Of a DNA stretch of 64,000 bases, positions 39,515 to 59,024 are shown piece after piece (within the stretch, counting starts at the first letter, position 1; each line of letters opens with the position of its first letter). A model generated the notes under the pieces. It had not been told where the DNA came from, did no database searches, and worked only from the letters and a program-made list of their open reading frames with translations. This DNA comes from Modestobacter sp. DSM 44400 (lineage in GTDB: Bacteria; Actinomycetota; Actinomycetes; Mycobacteriales; Geodermatophilaceae): the NCBI RefSeq assembly GCF_900107175.1, contig NZ_FNOZ01000015.1, forward strand, positions 1-64,000, read 5' to 3'. The translations under genes were made by a program, and so were the position numbers.

Positions 39515-40672
39515 ATGCGGCCGCTGGAGGGCATGACGGTCGTCTCGCTCGAGCAGGCCGTCGCGGCCCCCTTCGCCACCCGACAGCTCGCCGATCTCGG
39601 CGCCCGGGTGATCAAGGTGGAACGACCGGGCGCGGGGGACTTCGCCCGCGGCTACGACGAGACGGTCCGCGGCATGTCCAGCCACTTCGTCTGGCTCAAC
39701 CGCTCCAAGGAGTCCCTCGCCCTGGACCTCAAGTCCGAGCATGGCCGGAACGTCCTCGAGCACCTGGTCGCGCGCGCCGACGTCTTCGTGCAGAACCTCG
39801 CTCCGGGAGCGGCCGAGCGCCTCGGATTCGGAGCATTCCAGCTGCGTCAGCGTCACCCGCGGCTGGTGCACTGCTCGATCTCCGGCTACGGCGAAGGCGG
39901 CCCCTACACCGACAAGAAGGCCTACGACCTGCTCGTGCAGTGCGAGTCCGGGCTCGTGTCGATCACCGGCACCGAGGAGACGCCGGCCAAGGTCGGCATC
40001 GCCGTGGCCGACATCGCCGCCGGCATGTACGCCTACACCGGCGTGCTGACGGCCCTCCTGCGGCGGGAGCGGTCGGGCGAGGGCGCCACCGTCGAGGTCT
40101 CGATGCTGGAGGCGCTCGCGGAGTGGATGGGGTTTCCCATGTATTTCACCCTGTACGGCGGCACTCAGCCGGATCGCTCGGGCGCCTCGCACGCAGCCAT
40201 CGCTCCCTACGGCCCCTTCGAGGCCAGCGACGGGGTGGTCTTCCTGGGCATCCAGAACGAGCGGGAGTGGGCAGCCTTCTGCCAACGGGTGCTGGAGCGC
40301 CCGGCGATGGTCTCCGACGAGCGGTTCGCCACCAACAGCCGGCGGGTAGCCTCCGCCGCGGCGCTGCGGGAGGTTATCGAGGGGATCTTCCGCGCCGTGC
40401 CGAGTGAGGAGGTGCTGCGCCGATTGGAGGCCGCGGGCATCGCCAATGCGCGGCTCCGCGACGTGGTGGGCCTCATCGACCACCCGCAGCTCGCCGCCCG
40501 GGATCGCTGGCGGGAGGTCGACTCGCCGGTCGGCACGCTGCGGACCCTCCTCCCGCCCGCGCGCCTGGACGCCGACGAGCCGGTGATGGGTCCCATCCCC
40601 ACCCCGGGCCAGCACACGGCTGCGATTCTGCGCGAGCTCGGTCTCGACGACGGGGACGGCGAACGGTCGTGA
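39515..40672 (+). CDS. Family III CoA-transferase (CaiB/BaiF type), copy 1
   Basis: A 385-residue CaiB-family enzyme from ATG 39515. Family features: VVSLEQAVAAPFATRQLADLGARVIKVERPGAGDFARGYD at the N-terminus, then FVWLNRSKESLALDLKSEHGRNVL, the aspartate nucleophile expected near the KKAYDLLVQCESGL segment (YDLLVQ matches), and RDRWREVDSPVGTLRTLLPPARL near the C-terminus. It moves CoA between acids. It is strikingly similar to the second copy at 52226. Expected donors and acceptors are succinyl-CoA and a dicarboxylate such as malate, itaconate or mesaconate. It starts a plus-strand run with GntR. Confidence 0.9.
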   Translation: MRPLEGMTVVSLEQAVAAPFATRQLADLGARVIKVERPGAGDFARGYDETVRGMSSHFVWLNRSKESLALDLKSEHGRNVLEHLVARADVFVQNLAPGAAERLGFGAFQLRQRHPRLVHCSISGYGEGGPYTDKKAYDLLVQCESGLVSITGTEETPAKVGIAVADIAAGMYAYTGVLTALLRRERSGEGATVEVSMLEALAEWMGFPMYFTLYGGTQPDRSGASHAAIAPYGPFEASDGVVFLGIQNEREWAAFCQRVLERPAMVSDERFATNSRRVASAAALREVIEGIFRAVPSEEVLRRLEAAGIANARLRDVVGLIDHPQLAARDRWREVDSPVGTLRTLLPPARLDADEPVMGPIPTPGQHTAAILRELGLDDGDGERS

Positions 40673-48822: not shown

Positions 48823-48917
48823 GGTCCGGTCGTCGTCACCGCTTGACGGACCGGCCACATGCTGAATAAATGGCCGTACATTACCCGTTGAACCTCCCGC
48901 CCCGAGGAGCTGACGTC

Positions 48918-50105
48918 GTGCCCTCTCTTGCCAGCGAGCTCGCCACCTGGGCTGCTGACCTCGATCCGACCGCCGAGGACCTCGCGCTGGCGGACCGAGC
49001 GCTCGTGGACACCGTCGCCGTCGCCGTCGCCGCCCGCGCCGAGCCCGTCGTCGGCCGCGCCCTCGGCGTCTCGGAGGCCGCGCGCTGGGCCACCGCGGCC
49101 CACGTCCTGGACTTCGACGACCTGCACATGGAGTCGACGACGCACATCAGCACCGTCTGTGTCCCGGCCGTCCTGGCGACCGGCGGTGGGGCCCGGGCCT
49201 ACCTGGCCGGTGCGGGGGTGATGGCCCGGATCGGCCGCGCGCTGGGCTGGGCGCACTACAGCGCCGGCTGGCATGCCACCACGACGGCCGGCGCGCCGGC
49301 CGCGGCTGTGTCGGCCGGCGTGGCCCTCGGTCTCGACGCCGAGCGGCTGGCCACCGCGATGGCCCTGGCAGTCCCGGCGGCGGGCGGGGTGCAGCGCGCC
49401 TTCGGCACCGATGCGAAGTCCCTGCAGGTCGGCTTCGCCGCCGACGCCGGCGTCCGGGCGGCTCGCCTGGCCGCAGCCGGCGCCACGGCCGACCCGCGGG
49501 CCCTCGACGGCTGGTTGGAGCTGGCCGGCGGCGACCCGAGCAGCCTCGACATGGGCGGCCCGGCGGTCCCGGGCGGCCTGGCCATCAAGGTGTTCCCCTG
49601 CTGCTACGCCCTGCAGCGCCCGATCAGCGCGCTGTCCGCGCTCCGCGCGGGCGGGGTGGACCCGGCCGAGGTGCGCCGGATCGTCGTGCGGACGCCGAAG
49701 GGCACCGTCACGCCGCTGAGCCACCACCGTCCCGTCACCGGGCTCCAGGCCAAGTTCAGCATGGAGTACGCCGCGGCCACGGCCCTGCTCGATGACTACG
49801 CGGGGTTCTGGAGTTTCACCGACGAGGCCGTCCAGCGGCCGGCGGCGCAGCGGCTGGTCGAGCTGGTCCAGATCGAACTGGGCGACGGCGGGGACTGGCT
49901 GCTGGCCGGGGAGTTCGACGCGGAGGTCCACGTGGGGGACGAGGTGCTGCGCGCCTCGCAGCAGTTCCCGCCGGGGTCGCCCCAGCGCCCTCCGACGCAC
50001 GAGGAACTGCTGCGCAAGGTGCGGGAATGCCTGGCCGGCTCCGGTCTGGAGCCCGAGTCGATCGAGTGGTCGACCGCCGGGCAGCTCCTGCGCGACCACG
50101 TCTGA
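48918..50105 (+). CDS. MmgE/PrpD family protein (2-methylcitrate dehydratase/cis-aconitate decarboxylase-like)
   Basis: About 395 residues from GTG 48918, chosen because GAGGAG lies nine bases upstream; an earlier in-frame ATG (48870) is less likely. The MmgE/PrpD opening (HVLDFDDLHMESTTHISTVCVPAVLA) has the family's DFDD-H-x3-S pattern; GWHATTTAGAPAAAVSAGVALGLD, TDAKSLQVGFAADAGVRAARLAAAGATAD and VFPCCYALQRPISAL are typical. The family includes 2-methylcitrate dehydratase, cis-aconitate decarboxylase (itaconate-forming) and iminodisuccinate epimerase. Next to CoA-transferase, MaoC and CitE-like genes, an itaconate- or citramalate-type role is attractive, but specificity is not decided. It starts the operon with four genes downstream. 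Confidence 0.85.
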   Translation: MPSLASELATWAADLDPTAEDLALADRALVDTVAVAVAARAEPVVGRALGVSEAARWATAAHVLDFDDLHMESTTHISTVCVPAVLATGGGARAYLAGAGVMARIGRALGWAHYSAGWHATTTAGAPAAAVSAGVALGLDAERLATAMALAVPAAGGVQRAFGTDAKSLQVGFAADAGVRAARLAAAGATADPRALDGWLELAGGDPSSLDMGGPAVPGGLAIKVFPCCYALQRPISALSALRAGGVDPAEVRRIVVRTPKGTVTPLSHHRPVTGLQAKFSMEYAAATALLDDYAGFWSFTDEAVQRPAAQRLVELVQIELGDGGDWLLAGEFDAEVHVGDEVLRASQQFPPGSPQRPPTHEELLRKVRECLAGSGLEPESIEWSTAGQLLRDHV

Positions 50106-50177
50106 CCCCGCGCGAGGCCGAACCATCGAAACGGCCGCAGTGCACCAAAGGACGCAACGAACCGAGGGAGGGGCCCC

Positions 50178-51335
50178 GTGGAAGGGCTGACCGAGGAAGA
50201 ACAGGCGATCGTCGAGACCGTGCGGGACTTCGTCGACCGGGCGGTGAAGCCGGTGGTCCAGGAGCTGGACCACACGAACACCTACCCCGAGGCGCTCATC
50301 GAGCAGATGAAGCAGCTGGGCATCTTCGGCCTGGCGATCCCCGAGCCGTGGGGCGAGGTCCGGGTGAGCGCCCCCTGTTACGCGCTGGTAACCGAGGAGC
50401 TCGCCCGGGGCTGGATGAGCCTGGCCGGCGCCATGGGCGGGCACACCGTGGTGGCCAAGCTCATCCTCGATCACGGGACGCAGGAGCAGAAGGACACCTA
50501 CCTGCCCCGGATGGCGACCGGCGAGCTGCGCGCCACGATGGCGTTGACCGAGCCCGGCGGCGGCTCGGACCTGCAGGCCATGCGCACCACCGCGACGCGG
50601 GCCGGCGACGAGTACGTCGTCAACGGGGGGAAGACGTGGATCACGAACGCCCGTACGTCCGGGTTGGTGGCCCTGCTCTGCAAGACCGACCCGGCCGCCG
50701 TCCCCGCCCACTCGGGCATCAGCATCCTGCTGGTGGAGAAGGGCCCGGGCTTCACGGTCTCCCGCGACCTGCCGAAGCTGGGCTACAAGGGTGTGGAGAG
50801 CTGCGAGCTCTCCTTCGACGACTACCGCACCCCGACGAGCGCGCTGCTCGGCGACCATGAGGGCCGTGGGTTCTCGCAGATGATGCGCGGGCTGGAGATC
50901 GGCCGGATCCAGGTCGCCTCGCGGGCCCTCGGCGTCGGCCGCGCTGCTCTGGAAGACGCCTTGCGGTACGCCCAGGAGCGGGAGAGCTTCGGCAAACCTA
51001 TCTGGAAGCACCAGTCGATCGGGAACTACCTCGCCGACATGGCGACCAAGCTGATCGCAGCGCGGCAGTTGGTGCTCTACGCCGCCCGGCGGTTCGAGGC
51101 GGGAGAGCGGGCCGACATGGAGGCCGGGATGGCGAAGCTCTTCGCCTCCGAGACGGCCATGCAGATCGCGCTGGACGCGATCCGCATCCACGGTGGCTAC
51201 GGATATTCGACCGAGTTCGACGTCGAGCGCTATTTCCGGGATGCCCCGCTCATGATCGTCGGCGAGGGCACGAACGAGATCCAGCGGAATGTCATCGCGC
51301 GCCAGCTGGTCAGCCGCAACAGCGTGGCCCCGTGA
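50178..51335 (+). CDS. Acyl-CoA dehydrogenase
   Basis: A 385-residue flavoenzyme. Landmarks: ATMALTEPGGGSDLQAM and KTWITNA (FAD binding), ERESFGKPIWKHQSIGNYLADMATKL, and the catalytic base region IVGEGTNEIQRNVIARQL, with Glu in the usual EGT position, as well as RIHGGYGYSTEFDVERYFRDAPL. The ending RQL...NSVAP is typical. It introduces a double bond alpha-beta into an acyl-CoA, here plausibly methylsuccinyl-CoA or another diacyl half-ester. It starts after the PrpD gene (72 bases), one base before the CitE gene. Confidence 0.92.
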   Translation: MEGLTEEEQAIVETVRDFVDRAVKPVVQELDHTNTYPEALIEQMKQLGIFGLAIPEPWGEVRVSAPCYALVTEELARGWMSLAGAMGGHTVVAKLILDHGTQEQKDTYLPRMATGELRATMALTEPGGGSDLQAMRTTATRAGDEYVVNGGKTWITNARTSGLVALLCKTDPAAVPAHSGISILLVEKGPGFTVSRDLPKLGYKGVESCELSFDDYRTPTSALLGDHEGRGFSQMMRGLEIGRIQVASRALGVGRAALEDALRYAQERESFGKPIWKHQSIGNYLADMATKLIAARQLVLYAARRFEAGERADMEAGMAKLFASETAMQIALDAIRIHGGYGYSTEFDVERYFRDAPLMIVGEGTNEIQRNVIARQLVSRNSVAP

Positions 51336-51336
51336 C

Positions 51337-52215
51337 ATGAGCCAGGCCGCTGACCAGGGTTCCGGACGTCCGGATGCACGGAGCGCGTGCTCCTGGCTGT
51401 TCGTCCCCGGAGACCGTCCCGACCGCTTCGGCAAGGCGGTGGCGAGTGGAGCCGATCTGGTGGTGTGCGACCTCGAGGACGCCGTCGGCGTGGACGCCAA
51501 GGCGCCGGCCCGCGGCGAGGTCGCCCGCTGGCTCGCCGGTGGCGGGGTGGGCTGCGTGCGGATCAACGCGCACGGGACGCCGTTCCACGACGCGGACGTC
51601 GCTGCGCTCGCCGGCGCGCCCGGCCTGGTCGCCGTGATGGTGCCCAAGGCGGAGGACCCGCGGCGGCTGACCGCGCTGAGCGAACGCCTGGGACCGGGCA
51701 CCGCCGTGGTGGGACTGGTCGAGACCGCACTGGGCGTGCACCGCGTCCACCGGCTGGCCGCGACGCCTGGGGTGGCGCGACTGGCCTTCGGTTCGGTCGA
51801 TCTCGCCCTTGACCTGGGCGCGGAGGACGCCGCACTGCCGCTGCTGTTCGCGCGCTCCGCGCTGGTGCTGGCCTGCCGGGTCGCGGGCCTCCCGGCGCCG
51901 GTGGACGGCGTCACGCGGGAGCTCGACGACCCGTCGGCCATCGGATCGGACACCGCCGCTGCCGTCGGCGTCGGCTTCGGCGGCAAGCTGTGTGTGCACC
52001 CGAAGCAGGTGAGCGCCGTCAACGCGGGTTTCCGGCCCAGCGACGCCGACGTCCGGCACGCCCGCGAGGTGCTGGCTGCCGCCGCCGGCGGGTCTGCCGC
52101 GCGGATCGGTGGGCAGATGATCGACCGGCCGGTCCTCGAGCACGCCTGGCGGGTGTTGCGGCGGGCCGGCTCCGATTCCGGCTCCGATGCGCCGGACAGT
52201 CCCCCCACGATATGA
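51337..52215 (+). CDS. CitE/HpcH-type CoA-ester lyase
   Basis: About 292 residues from ATG 51337, one base after the acyl-CoA dehydrogenase stop. Family features: SWLFVPGDRPDRFGKAVASGADLVVCDLEDAVG, RINAHGTPFHDADV, VMVPKAEDPRRLTAL, VGLVETALGVHRVHRLA, LAFGSVDLALDLGAEDAAL and GKLCVHPKQVSAVNAGF. The metal-binding Glu/Asp (in VVCDLEDAVG and FGSVDLALDLG) are kept. Relatives cleave malyl-CoA, citramalyl-CoA or beta-methylmalyl-CoA into an acyl-CoA and a keto acid. With the neighbouring CoA-transferase and hydratase it makes a good citramalyl-CoA lyase candidate. Confidence 0.9.
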   Translation: MSQAADQGSGRPDARSACSWLFVPGDRPDRFGKAVASGADLVVCDLEDAVGVDAKAPARGEVARWLAGGGVGCVRINAHGTPFHDADVAALAGAPGLVAVMVPKAEDPRRLTALSERLGPGTAVVGLVETALGVHRVHRLAATPGVARLAFGSVDLALDLGAEDAALPLLFARSALVLACRVAGLPAPVDGVTRELDDPSAIGSDTAAAVGVGFGGKLCVHPKQVSAVNAGFRPSDADVRHAREVLAAAAGGSAARIGGQMIDRPVLEHAWRVLRRAGSDSGSDAPDSPPTI

Positions 52216-52225
52216 GGAGTGCACC

Positions 52226-53396
52226 GTGCTGCCGTTGACCGGGATCACCGTCGTCGCCTTGGAGCAAGCGGTGGCAGCCCCGTTCGCCACCCGGCAACTG
52301 GCCGACCTGGGAGCTCGCGTGCTCAAGGTGGAGCGGCCCGGGGTCGGCGACTTCGCCCGCGGCTACGACGAGACGGTCGAGGGGATGTCCAGCTACTTCG
52401 TGTGGCTGAACCGGGGCAAGGAGAGCGTCGCCCTGGACATCAAGGACCCCGACGACCGGGCGGTGCTGGACGCGATGCTGGCCGAAGCCGACGTGTTCGT
52501 GCAGAACCTGCTGCCCGGGGCGACGGCTCGTCTCGGCCTGGACCAGGAGACCCTCCGCGACCGGCACCCACGGCTGATCACCTGCTCCATCTCCGGCTAC
52601 GGCTCCGACGGGCCCTATCGCAGCAAGAAGGCCTATGACCTGCTCGTCCAGTGCGAGGCGGGGTTCCTGTCGGTGACCGGAACGCCCGGGTCGCCGGCGA
52701 AGGCCGGTGCGTCGGTCGCCGACATCTCCGCCGGCATGTACGCCTTCACCGGTGTGCTGACCGCGCTGTACGAGCGGGAGCGGACCGGCGCCGGCACGAG
52801 CTTCGAGGTGGCGATGCTCGACGCGTTGGGTGAGTGGATGGGCCAGCCGTACTTCTACGCCCGCTACGGGGGCTCGCCGCCGCCGCGTACCGGCGCCCGC
52901 CACGCGTCCATCGCCCCCTACGGGCCGTACCGGGCCGGGGGCGGCGCCCAGGTGTTCATCGGGGTGCAGAACGAGCGGGAGTGGGCGGCGCTGTGCACCG
53001 ATGTGCTGGCCCGGCCGGACCTGGCCGAGGATCCGCGCTTCGTCCGCAACTCCCGCCGGGTCGCCAACAACCGCCGAGCTCAGTACGCTGCTCGAGGCGG
53101 CGCTGGCGCAGCTGACCGCCGACCAGGTCACCGAGCGCCTCGACGAGGTGGGCATCGCAAACGCACGCCTGCGGACGATGGCCGAGTTCGCCGAGCACCC
53201 CCAGCTCGAAGCCCGCGATCGCTGGCGGGATGTCGACTCCCCGGTCGGCCCACTCCGTTCACTCCTCCCGCCGGTCACCGTCCCCGGACGGGAGTCCGCC
53301 ATGGGGCCGGTGCCGGCCATCGGGCAACACACTGACGCCATCCGTGCGGAGTTCGCCTCTGGGCGCGACCGGACGCGCAGACAGGAGCAGTCATGA
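52226..53396 (+). pseudogene. Family III CoA-transferase, copy 2, one-base frameshift
   Basis: From GTG 52226, with GAGGAG eight bases upstream. The protein follows the family and closely resembles copy 1 at 39515 (GITVVALEQAVAAPFATRQLADLGAR, KKAYDLLVQCEAGF). After NSRRVANN it loses frame at 53071-53072, where one extra C is present. Removing it restores VANN-AELSTLLEAALAQLTADQVTERLDEVGIANARLRTM to a stop at 53394-53396, giving 389 residues, the expected length. The downstream half is otherwise undamaged (RDRWRDVDSPVGPLRSLLPP). It may be a very recent pseudogene or a sequencing or assembly error. The stop overlaps the next ATG. Confidence 0.85.
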
Positions 53397-54271
53397 CGAC
53401 GAGCGCCATGGTGCAGCCGGCTGAGCCGGAGAGCAGCGCACGCACCGAGCTCATCACCCGGGAGCCGGCCGAGGCCCTGGCCGGGGTGCTGGACATCGCG
53501 GCGCCCTCGGCCGAGCAGGGCCTCCCGGCGTTGTGGCACTGGACGTACCTGCTCGAGCGTCGCCGGCAGAGCGATCTGGGCCCGGACGGTCACCCGACGC
53601 ACGGCATACCGGCCCCACCCGGGCCCGGGCGGCTGCGCATGTTCGGCGGTGGCCGGGTGTCGACGTACTCGGCGCTCGAGTTCGGGCGGCCCGCGGTGCG
53701 CACCACCCGGCTGGCCCGCGAGGTCGACAAGGTGGGCGCGTCGGGGCCCATGACGCTGGCGACGGTGCGGTCGGACGTCGAGCAGGACGGCCGGCTGGCC
53801 ATTACCGACGAGCAGGACATCGTGTACCGCCTCGCCGGTCCTCCGGCGCAGCCCCGCGCGGCTGCGGCACCGCAGGCCGACGAGCCGGCGCCGGAGGGAC
53901 GGCTGGAGATGCCGGTCGACCCGGTGGTCCTGTTCCGCTTCTCCGCGCTGACCTACAACGCGCACCGGATCCACTACGACGCGACGTACGCGGCCGAGGA
54001 GGGCTATCCCGGCCTGGTGGTGCACGGACCCCTGAAGGCGCTGCTGATGGGCGAGTGCTTCCGCCGCTCCGGCGTCCCGCTGGAGGGGACGGTGTTCGCC
54101 TACCGGCTGGTCGCGCCGACGTTCGGAGCGCAGCGGCTGACCGTCACCTCGCGGGTCCTCGACGGACAGCGGTCCGCCCGCGTGCAGGACGGCCGAGGTC
54201 GGACCACCGCGACAGCCACGCTGGAGCCCCTCGAGGACGTCCGTCCCGCGCCCGCCGCGATCACCCGGTGA
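53393..54271 (+). CDS. Mesaconyl-CoA-hydratase-like MaoC/FAS1 protein
   Basis: A 292-residue double hot-dog protein whose ATG overlaps the CoA-transferase stop (53393-53396). The N-terminal hot-dog is WHWTYLLERRRQSDLGPDGHP...GRVSTYSALEFGRP. The C-terminal domain has the hydratase motif FSALTYNAHRIHYDATYAAEEGYPGLVVHGPLKALLMGE with the Asp/His/Ser-Gly catalytic arrangement (HRIHYD, HGP). This HTD2-like layout matches mesaconyl-C4-CoA hydratase and itaconyl-CoA hydratase, which form citramalyl-CoA. The neighbouring CitE-like lyase would use that product. The two remain candidates by context. Confidence 0.88.
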   Translation: MTTSAMVQPAEPESSARTELITREPAEALAGVLDIAAPSAEQGLPALWHWTYLLERRRQSDLGPDGHPTHGIPAPPGPGRLRMFGGGRVSTYSALEFGRPAVRTTRLAREVDKVGASGPMTLATVRSDVEQDGRLAITDEQDIVYRLAGPPAQPRAAAAPQADEPAPEGRLEMPVDPVVLFRFSALTYNAHRIHYDATYAAEEGYPGLVVHGPLKALLMGECFRRSGVPLEGTVFAYRLVAPTFGAQRLTVTSRVLDGQRSARVQDGRGRTTATATLEPLEDVRPAPAAITR

Positions 54272-56939: not shown

Positions 56940-58415
56940 ATGGGCACTCCTGAGCGTCGCGCTCACCACCAGGTCACCTTTGCCGTCCTGACGGCGGGGG
57001 TGATCGCGTTCTCGCTGCTGCAGTCGCTGGTGACCCCGGTGCTGCCGACCATCGAGGCGGCGCTGCACACCAACCAGTCCGACGTGACGTGGGTGCTCAC
57101 CGCCTACCTGCTGTCGGCCTCGATCTTCACGCCGATCCTGGGCCGGCTGGGCGACATGACCGGCAAGAAGCGGATGTTCGTCCTCGCGCTCGTCGCGCTG
57201 GCCGTCGGCTGCCTGCTCGCCGCCCTCGCGGCGAACCTGACCGTCATGATCATCGCCAGGGTCGTGCAGGGCATCGGCGGCGGCGTGCTGCCGCTGGCCT
57301 TCGGCATCATCCGGGACGAGTTCCCCCGCGACCGGGTGCCGGGCGCAATCGGAGCGATCTCGGCCCTGATCGCGGTGGGCGCCGGTGTCGGCCTGGTGGT
57401 CGCCGGTCCCATCGTCGACCTGCTCGGGTACTCGTGGCTGTTCTGGGCGCCACTGATCGTGCTGGTCGTCGCCGCGCTGGCCGCCCACTTCCTGGTCCCA
57501 GAGTCCCCGGTGCGCACGTCGGGGGCGATCAACTGGCCGGCCGCCCTGTTGCTGTCGGGCTGGCTGGTCGCGCTGCTCCTGCCGATCAGCCAGGCCCCGG
57601 CCTGGGGGTGGGGCTCCGCGAAGGTGGTGGGGCTGCTGGCCGTAGCCGTCGTCCTGGCGGCGCTGTGGATCCTCAGGGAGTCGCGGGCCGCGCAGCCGCT
57701 GATCGACATGCGGATGATGCGCATCCGCGCGGTGTGGGCGACCAACCTGGTGGCGCTGCTGTTCGGCGTGGCGATGTACGCAGCCTTCGCGTTCCTGCCG
57801 CAGTTCCTGCAGACGCCGTCCGCGGCCGGCTACGGGTTCGGCGCCTCGATCACCGAGTCCGGTCTGCTCGTGCTGCCGCAGACGATCGCCTCGTTCGTGC
57901 TGGGTCTGGTGTCCGGGCGGATGGCCCAGCGCGTCGGCTCGAAGGTCGTGCTGGTGGTGGGCGCGGCCATCGGGGCGCTCGGCTACCTCGGCTTCGTGTT
58001 CGCGCACGACTCGCGGACGGAGATCGTGGTGGTCTCGGTGGTGATGGGCGCCGGATTCGGGCTGGCCTTCGCCGCGATGTCCAACCTGATCGTGGCGGCC
58101 GTGCCGCCGCAGCAGACCGGGGTGGCCAGCGGGATGAACGCAAACATCCGCACCATCGGCGGTGCGATCGGTGCCGCGGTGATGGCCAGCGTGGTGACCG
58201 CGGGCGCGGGCCCGGGCGGGCTGCCGCAGGAGTCGGGCTACACGAACGGCTTCCTGCTGCTGAGCGGGGCGCTGCTGCTCAGCGCACTGGCCGCGCTGCT
58301 CATCCCGGCGGTGCGGCGGGACCCGGGCACCCACGTCGAGCCGGACGTCGAGCTGCGCCACCCCGAGGCGGCGTTGATCGCCGGAGGCACCCTGGTCGGC
58401 GACGACCCGGAGTGA
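56940..58415 (+). CDS. MFS exporter, DHA2 (14-TM) family
   Basis: A 491-residue protein with about fourteen hydrophobic segments. VLPTIEAALHTNQSDVTWVLTAYLLSASIFTPILGRLGDMTGKKRMFVLALVALAVGCLLAALA is the DHA2 opening with motif A (GRLGDMTGKKR), and RVVQGIGGGVLPLAFGIIRDEFPRDRVPGAIGAISALIAVGAGVGLVVAGPIVD gives motif C-like antiporter sequence. Proton-driven multidrug or metabolite export is expected. No regulator lies beside it except the divergent SDR. Confidence 0.9.
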   Translation: MGTPERRAHHQVTFAVLTAGVIAFSLLQSLVTPVLPTIEAALHTNQSDVTWVLTAYLLSASIFTPILGRLGDMTGKKRMFVLALVALAVGCLLAALAANLTVMIIARVVQGIGGGVLPLAFGIIRDEFPRDRVPGAIGAISALIAVGAGVGLVVAGPIVDLLGYSWLFWAPLIVLVVAALAAHFLVPESPVRTSGAINWPAALLLSGWLVALLLPISQAPAWGWGSAKVVGLLAVAVVLAALWILRESRAAQPLIDMRMMRIRAVWATNLVALLFGVAMYAAFAFLPQFLQTPSAAGYGFGASITESGLLVLPQTIASFVLGLVSGRMAQRVGSKVVLVVGAAIGALGYLGFVFAHDSRTEIVVVSVVMGAGFGLAFAAMSNLIVAAVPPQQTGVASGMNANIRTIGGAIGAAVMASVVTAGAGPGGLPQESGYTNGFLLLSGALLLSALAALLIPAVRRDPGTHVEPDVELRHPEAALIAGGTLVGDDPE

Positions 58416-58429
58416 GTCCACTGCGTCCG

Positions 58430-58930
58430 AGGTGAGGGCAGCAGGTCCTCCTCGTGGTCGAGCTCGCGCTCCAGGATCCGGAGGCCCTCGTCGGTCAGCT
58501 GGCCGGCGTTCCGCCAGCGGATCAGATCCTCGCGCTGGGCGTGCTGCAGGGAGGTCCAGCCGGCGCTGGTAGCGGGACAGCCGGGTCTGCCACCAGTCCC
58601 ACCGCGACGCCGCCGGCCGCGGCCACGATGAACTGGCCCAGCGCGGACCAGGCGGAGAACGCCTCGCCGCGGGCGGCGGTGACCGCCACGGTGAGCGTGG
58701 TCAGCGCCGTCGCGTCGTTGAGCAGGCCCTCGCCCTGGATGAGGGTGACCAGCCGCGGGGGCAGGCCGACTCGCGGCCCACGGCGAGCGCGGCGCCCGGG
58801 TCGGGTGGCGTGACGGCGGCGCCCAGGGCGATCCGGCAAGCCCGGTGCGCTCGGCGACCCGGTGCAGCACCACGATCACGGCGACGGTGGCCAGCACGAG
58901 CAGGACCATCGTCTCGACGTTAACCCGGGT
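58430..58930 (-). pseudogene. Na+/H+ antiporter (CPA1) remnant
   Basis: The minus strand holds fragments in several frames: VNVETMVLLVLATVAVIVVLHRVAERTGL as first helix, then a decayed PPDPGAALAVGR segment, LPPRLVTLIQGEGLLNDATALTTLTVAVTAARGEAFSAWSALGQFIVAAAGGVAVGLV (the CPA1 core), and finally REDLIRWRNAGQLTDEGLRILERELDHEEDLL, the family's C-terminal regulatory segment. Hundreds of residues between them are missing. It cannot make a working antiporter. Confidence 0.75.
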
Positions 58931-59024
58931 CATCCTTCCCGGGCAGGCCGTCCACCGGGCGTGCGGGCTTCCGACCGATCTGGTTCACGACGTGAACTTT
59001 CTCGGTCCAGGGGGAGGTGTGGCC

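Follow-up and report, generated by a model that had tools for sequence, protein, structure and literature searches.

Does the single surplus base in a class III CoA-transferase gene of Modestobacter sp. DSM 44400 reflect a genuine loss of function, or is it an error in the draft sequence? The gene lies in the window, i.e., the whole stretch of 64,000 nucleotides that we analysed, and a sequence-only reading of this DNA had proposed that it is either a very recent pseudogene or a base error. That choice proved to be the right one. On the evidence presented here we slightly favour a genuine, very recent null mutation over a base error, giving it roughly an even chance.

A surplus base splits the gene into two frames

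The gene starts at GTG 52226, and its first frame is open to TGA 53333-53335 (369 aa). The proper CoA-transferase frame ends at 53071 after 282 codons. From 53076 to TGA 53394-53396 the sequence gives the family ending, ELSTLLEAALAQL, which places the C-terminal quarter (53076-53393) in the next frame relative to the N piece. At the break, four bases stand where relatives carry one codon. The nearest orthologue, which is intact and comes from a Modestobacter sp. MAG (hereafter the sister), reads AAC GAC GCC GAG CTG and a Sphaerisporangium MAG (L029) reads AAC GAC GCC GAA CTC, compared with AAC AAC C GCC GAG CTC in the window, one base more than in the sister. The alignment with the sister orthologue thus bears out the surplus base reported earlier at 53071-53072, and the expected length of 389 residues agrees with a codon count of 282 + 1 + 106. 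The "C-run" described at this site is a CC at 53071-53072, with no longer run.

Both halves match PF02515 above its cut-off of 23.3 bits, the N half at profile positions 1-277 (E 3e-93, 313 bits) and the C half at positions 280-366 (E 5.7e-10, 39 bits). They are consecutive parts of one Pfam domain, and the gathering score of CoA-transferase family III is reached only by separate pieces that lie in different frames. The window gene lacks the one continuous frame of about 371-407 residues of its relatives, which, among those printed, are mostly 371-407 aa long, contig-end fragments aside. Disruption of the coding sequence relative to intact homologues, one mark of a pseudogene, is therefore present. 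Neither the frame scan nor the open reading frames revealed a stop or a second frame break in the gene. The features are listed in Table 1.

Table 1. Features of the window and frame-broken genes elsewhere in the assembly (positions with an L prefix refer to other loci)
Feature	Position	Strand	Evidence
Other class III CoA-transferase (copy 1), 385 aa, intact, different clade	39515..40672	+	ORF; Pfam; tree
MmgE/PrpD family protein, intact	48870..50105	+	PF03972 and PF19305; 76% identity to L029 over 411 aa
Acyl-CoA dehydrogenase, intact	50178..51335	+	Pfam; 93% identity to sister
HpcH/HpaI (CitE-like) lyase, intact	51289..52215	+	PF03328; RipC 165 bits, cut-off 375
Class III CoA-transferase, N-terminal 282 codons, with Asp138 and GAxH loop	52226..53071	+	PF02515 1-277; invariant columns in 19 sequences
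Frame break, CGCC at 53072-53075, surplus C in CC 53071-53072	53071..53075	+	Alignment to sister orthologue and L029
Out-of-frame tail actually encoded, to TGA 53333-53335	53072..53335	+	Sequence; pLDDT <50 for residues 294-369
CoA-transferase C-terminal 106 codons, next frame, to family stop TGA 53394-53396	53076..53396	+	PF02515 280-366; omega 0.11
AGGAG ribosome-binding site and spacer before MaoC-like gene	53383..53392	+	Read in sequence
MaoC-like hydratase, start overlaps CoA-transferase family stop	53393..54271	+	Weak Pfam match below curated cut-off; 77% identity to sister over 281 aa
Na+/H+ exchanger remnant	58238-58990	-	PF00999 recognised only at positions 129-191
Alpha/beta hydrolase, frame-broken	L114:13995-14778		Pfam
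MFS, frame-broken	L154:11072-12107		Pfam
GMC oxidoreductase, frame-broken	L155:19131-19998		Pfam
MFS, frame-broken	L157:3543-4357		Pfam
Histidine kinase, frame-broken	L158:17598-18865		Pfam

Frame conservation and constraint among relatives

The comparison covered 113 loci, a set that counts the window itself and further copies from the same genome, and in which at least five entries repeat a gene already fetched. We could place both halves at 101 loci; at the remaining 12 the C half had either been lost at a contig end or diverged too far for placement. The halves lie in one frame at 100 of the 101 placeable loci, the window being the sole exception, so the pairing of the two halves is not a matter of chance. 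Conservation among relatives would be expected of a programmed frameshift, and none of the 100 other loci with both halves placed shows the break. It is highly improbable that the gene uses programmed +1 frameshifting or phase variation or yields a functional split protein, for which the open frame on both sides of the break is the one favourable point; the site also carries no repeat tract, and the encoded tail is predicted to be unstructured.

Compared with the sister, the N piece has a dN of 0.057 and a dS of 0.437 (omega 0.13, 267 codons), and the C piece a dN of 0.093 and a dS of 0.845 (omega 0.11, 104 codons), its differences falling 13/7/43 over the three codon positions. Relaxed constraint or further lesions, the other marks of a pseudogene, are thus absent from the window gene (C-piece omega 0.11). 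Constraint is as strong on the C piece as on the N piece, so the lesion is either very recent or an error; judged from these alignments, no decay is visible since the break, which would make it very recent or not real.

Two alternatives to a null mutation draw on this point. In the first, the gene is intact in the cell and the surplus C exists in the draft only, through a base-calling or assembly error. Equal purifying selection on both halves, the lack of any other lesion and the single frame in the sister and 100 other placeable loci all agree with such an error, to which we give a slightly less than even chance; the site, however, is not a homopolymer. In the second, a mixed population or an assembly of close strains holds broken and intact alleles, of which the assembler took one. 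This would fit a lesion without a trace of decay, but the estimated contamination of the assembly is low (0.24) and we saw no sign of heterogeneity here; we regard it as very improbable.

The encoded product

The encoded product consists of 282 proper residues followed by 87 scrambled ones and ends at TGA 53333-53335. It lacks the C-terminal quarter of the CoA_transf_3 domain and the conserved HPQL...RDRWREVDSP stretch, but retains both the GAxH loop and the invariant Asp138. This residue, in the motif AYDLLVQ, is invariant in 19 sequences and would be the catalytic Asp expected of CoA-transferase family III, Asp169 in formyl-CoA transferase; the corresponding YD of copy 1 lines up with that of 10uh. 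AlphaFold, run with a 19-row alignment in each case, gave a mean pLDDT of 59.5 and a pTM of 0.57 for the encoded product, with residues 294-369 below a pLDDT of 50 and predicted to be unstructured. For the intact L029 orthologue the values were 80.4 and 0.77, and helices and strands continued across its C-terminal part. By prediction only, the encoded product is not confidently folded past residue 293 and the intact orthologue is.

The solved members of CoA-transferase family III (CaiB/BaiF, PF02515) nearest to the N piece by sequence are YfdE (4hl6, E 3.5e-58), formyl-CoA transferases and succinate--hydroxymethylglutarate CoA-transferase; the window gene differs from the family in being broken into two frames. 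All seven NCBIfam models matched scored below their curated cut-offs, both for the N piece (an unfairly short query) and for full-length copy 1, and we therefore withhold a substrate assignment. In the system of succinyl-CoA:mesaconate CoA-transferase and mesaconyl-CoA hydratase (PMC5592240), C5 dicarboxylates are handled by a CoA-transferase of class III together with a hydratase of the MaoC type. The window likewise pairs a class III CoA-transferase with a MaoC-like gene. However, the succinyl-CoA:mesaconate model gave 172.5 (N piece) and 204.7 (copy 1) against a cut-off of 700, and the window operon additionally carries MmgE/PrpD, acyl-CoA dehydrogenase and CitE-like genes.

The operon-like row and its downstream hydratase

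The broken gene is the fourth of an operon-like row at 48870-54271 comprising genes for MmgE/PrpD, acyl-CoA dehydrogenase, HpcH/HpaI (CitE-like) lyase, class III CoA-transferase and a MaoC-like protein. The row is preceded by a GntR-type regulator, whose score fell short of the cut-off in each of the 21 models matched; on the other strand there is a TRAP solute-binding gene. The true start of the lyase gene is probably downstream of 51289. RipA, RipB and RipC form the itaconate degradation set, and the lyase stayed below the RipC equivalog cut-off (165.2 bits vs 375). A hidden frame break in this gene, considered in view of its high omega (0.38), was absent from the alignments to the sister and L029, so we attribute the value to divergence.

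The sequence-only reading also held that downstream genes depend on the stop of the CoA-transferase. This did not hold up for the hydratase-like gene, which has its own AGGAG (53383-53387), five bases before ATG 53393, and therefore need not depend on the lost stop and need not be silenced. In the family frame the stop TGA 53394-53396 overlaps this ATG; the break shifts the stop 61 bases upstream and leaves 57 bases before it. Weaker translational coupling is therefore possible, and a loss of coupling would go beyond the evidence.

The same five genes occur in the same order in the Sphaerisporangium MAG (L029:4682-10012), with protein identities to the window of 66-89% for the four neighbours and 84% for the CoA-transferase N piece. 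Among the 22 other same-genus genomes searched, a close match to the CoA-transferase (87% DNA) was found in one, G015; G002, G016 and G022 gave matches of 71-72%, like copy 1, and the remaining genomes weaker ones. The row is thus patchily distributed and perhaps mobile. In the sister, contig L109:1-1922 matches the window MmgE/PrpD protein only over the last 72 residues, with no upstream match at E 1e-5; the sister gene is therefore truncated or different, or the contig is chimeric.

The other CoA-transferase copy

Copy 1, at 39515-40672, is intact as first described, but it is not the close paralogue it was taken for: it shares 68% protein and 71% DNA identity with the N piece. In a tree of 89 rows, copy 2 (the broken gene) groups with the sister species and the Sphaerisporangium MAG; copy 1 falls in another supported set, of 14 rows, where its partner is a Rubrobacter MAG. 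Copy 1 also sits among other genes, including a tartrate dehydrogenase gene over its curated cut-off. On this phylogeny, copy 1 is not a recent duplicate. The proposal that it covers the role of the second copy finds no support, the copies falling in separate supported sets; a place in another clade does not imply redundancy or substitution between them.

A decayed exchanger gene nearby

The raw frame scan flagged 58439-58768 on the minus strand, which led us to the remnant of a Na+/H+ exchanger gene 5 kb from the broken CoA-transferase. In genome G011 (L231) the exchanger is open for 539 aa and adjoins the same MFS gene; set against contig C369 of G011, the collinear pieces of the remnant are separated by deletions of about 255, 810 and 70 bases. 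By this comparison the exchanger gene is truly decayed. A plasmid search with the remnant found nothing.

Frame breaks across the assembly

The assembly is a 5.0-Mb draft in 182 contigs. We examined sampled stretches of it with a seven-state frame scan for one-strand frame changes, with the upstream frame open for at least 100 bases and both segments at least 150 bases long. In the tallies, one codon model, trained on this assembly (G000, window included), served for G000 and the same-genus controls; with each control's own codon model, there were 4, 4 and 0 raw candidates in G010, G007 and G020 (overlap of at least 45 bases). Raw candidates with an overlap below 100 bases were dropped, two of which, for example, read as ribosomal-protein and ATP-synthase gene boundaries. 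Unconfirmed candidates are included for G000 and controls alike.

The window holds 1 frame break in 57,889 coding bases. Elsewhere in G000 there were 15 in 198,025 (sample 1, contig starts and small contigs), 12 in 349,203 (sample 2), 5 in 287,119 (sample 3) and 1 in 167,538 (essential-rich stretches, in a gene that looks GGDEF-like by eye). The controls gave 3 in 276,166 (G010), 2 in 174,328 (G007) and 0 in 179,947 (G020). Without the window, G000 thus has 33 breaks in 1,001,885 coding bases vs 5 in 630,441 in the controls (p 5.6e-4), i.e., 3.3 vs 0.8 per 100 kb, about fourfold; without sample 1 the rates are 2.2 vs 0.8 (p 0.024). In-frame stops showed no such excess, with 11 in 714,766 coding bases of samples 1 and 2 and the essential-rich stretches (sample 3 set aside) vs 7 in 630,441 in the controls (p 0.33).

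The breaks fall in clumps on particular contigs (dispersion p 0.004), with 2 in 350,607 coding bases on C104, C128 and C111 vs 31 in 651,278 elsewhere, a grouping picked after seeing the counts. The contrast between the essential-rich and other large-contig samples reached only p 0.085. No stop or frame break was found in the matched genes for rpoB, rplB, ftsZ, gyrA, atpA, dnaE and ileS; by themselves these genes offer too few bases for a uniform error rate to be excluded. A Pfam scan covered 10 of the 28 counted pairs from samples 1 and 2 and the essential-rich stretches (the five of sample 3 set aside). In five the halves match consecutive parts or domains of one protein (Table 1), two are ambiguous (L155 DUF1206 and L116 Kelch) and three (L173, L118 and L120) lack Pfam support.

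Some candidates look like transposases by eye (L131 and L167). Contig C90 (L116 and L173) carries five counted breaks over 36 kb and is a badly decayed or badly assembled stretch; two or more of these breaks fall within a single GlxA/Kelch-type oxidase gene (L116:10463-11929).

Null mutation or sequence error

For a genuine null mutation we count the fourfold excess of frame breaks, their clumping, their low number in essential-rich stretches, the non-homopolymer site, the exchanger remnant and the AlphaFold scores of the encoded product compared with those of the L029 orthologue. Clumping speaks for real decay because evenly scattered base errors are not expected to clump; clumping, the scarcity of breaks in essential-rich stretches and the true gene remnant nearby correspondingly weigh against an error. 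Contig coverage differences, however, could mimic clumping. Against a null mutation stand the absence of a second lesion, the constraint on the C piece, the p 0.085 contrast, the 182-contig draft and the missing stop excess, since decay should yield stops as well as indels. The draft status and a frame-break excess without a stop excess conversely favour an error.

So does the published expectation. The GeneTack survey (PMC3711429) expects singleton frameshifts validated by homologues to stem from sequencing errors and not from real indels. Error and recent indel are the two standing causes of such singletons. The window case resembles them in showing one lineage-specific frame transition in a gene that is intact elsewhere, and differs in that control scans of the same genus and the orthologue of the sister stand behind it.

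Under the null mutation that we slightly favour, the insertion of one C, probably through slippage next to GCC, would have struck codon 283 of an accessory CoA-transferase gene whose distribution is patchy. The enzyme would be inactive and the CoA step on the operon's substrate, probably a dicarboxylic one, would be lost in this strain, while the remaining operon genes would stay translatable. More tentatively, the frameshift might be one of about a hundred real ones, a number extrapolated from the large-contig samples with unconfirmed candidates included. On that view this Modestobacter-like actinobacterium, free-living in soil, would be undergoing a burst of gene loss through indels, in which accessory genes for catabolism, transport and sensing disappear and the core is spared; we consider this doubtful.

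Recent loss or sequencing slip, either would be ordinary, and there is no new mechanism here. Frame breaks are more numerous in this assembly than in the same-genus controls, so a single frameshift here should be checked against reads before it is taken for gene loss. Any pathway call made for this strain from the operon would depend on a gene that is broken, and one should not count on copy 1 as a substitute for the broken copy.
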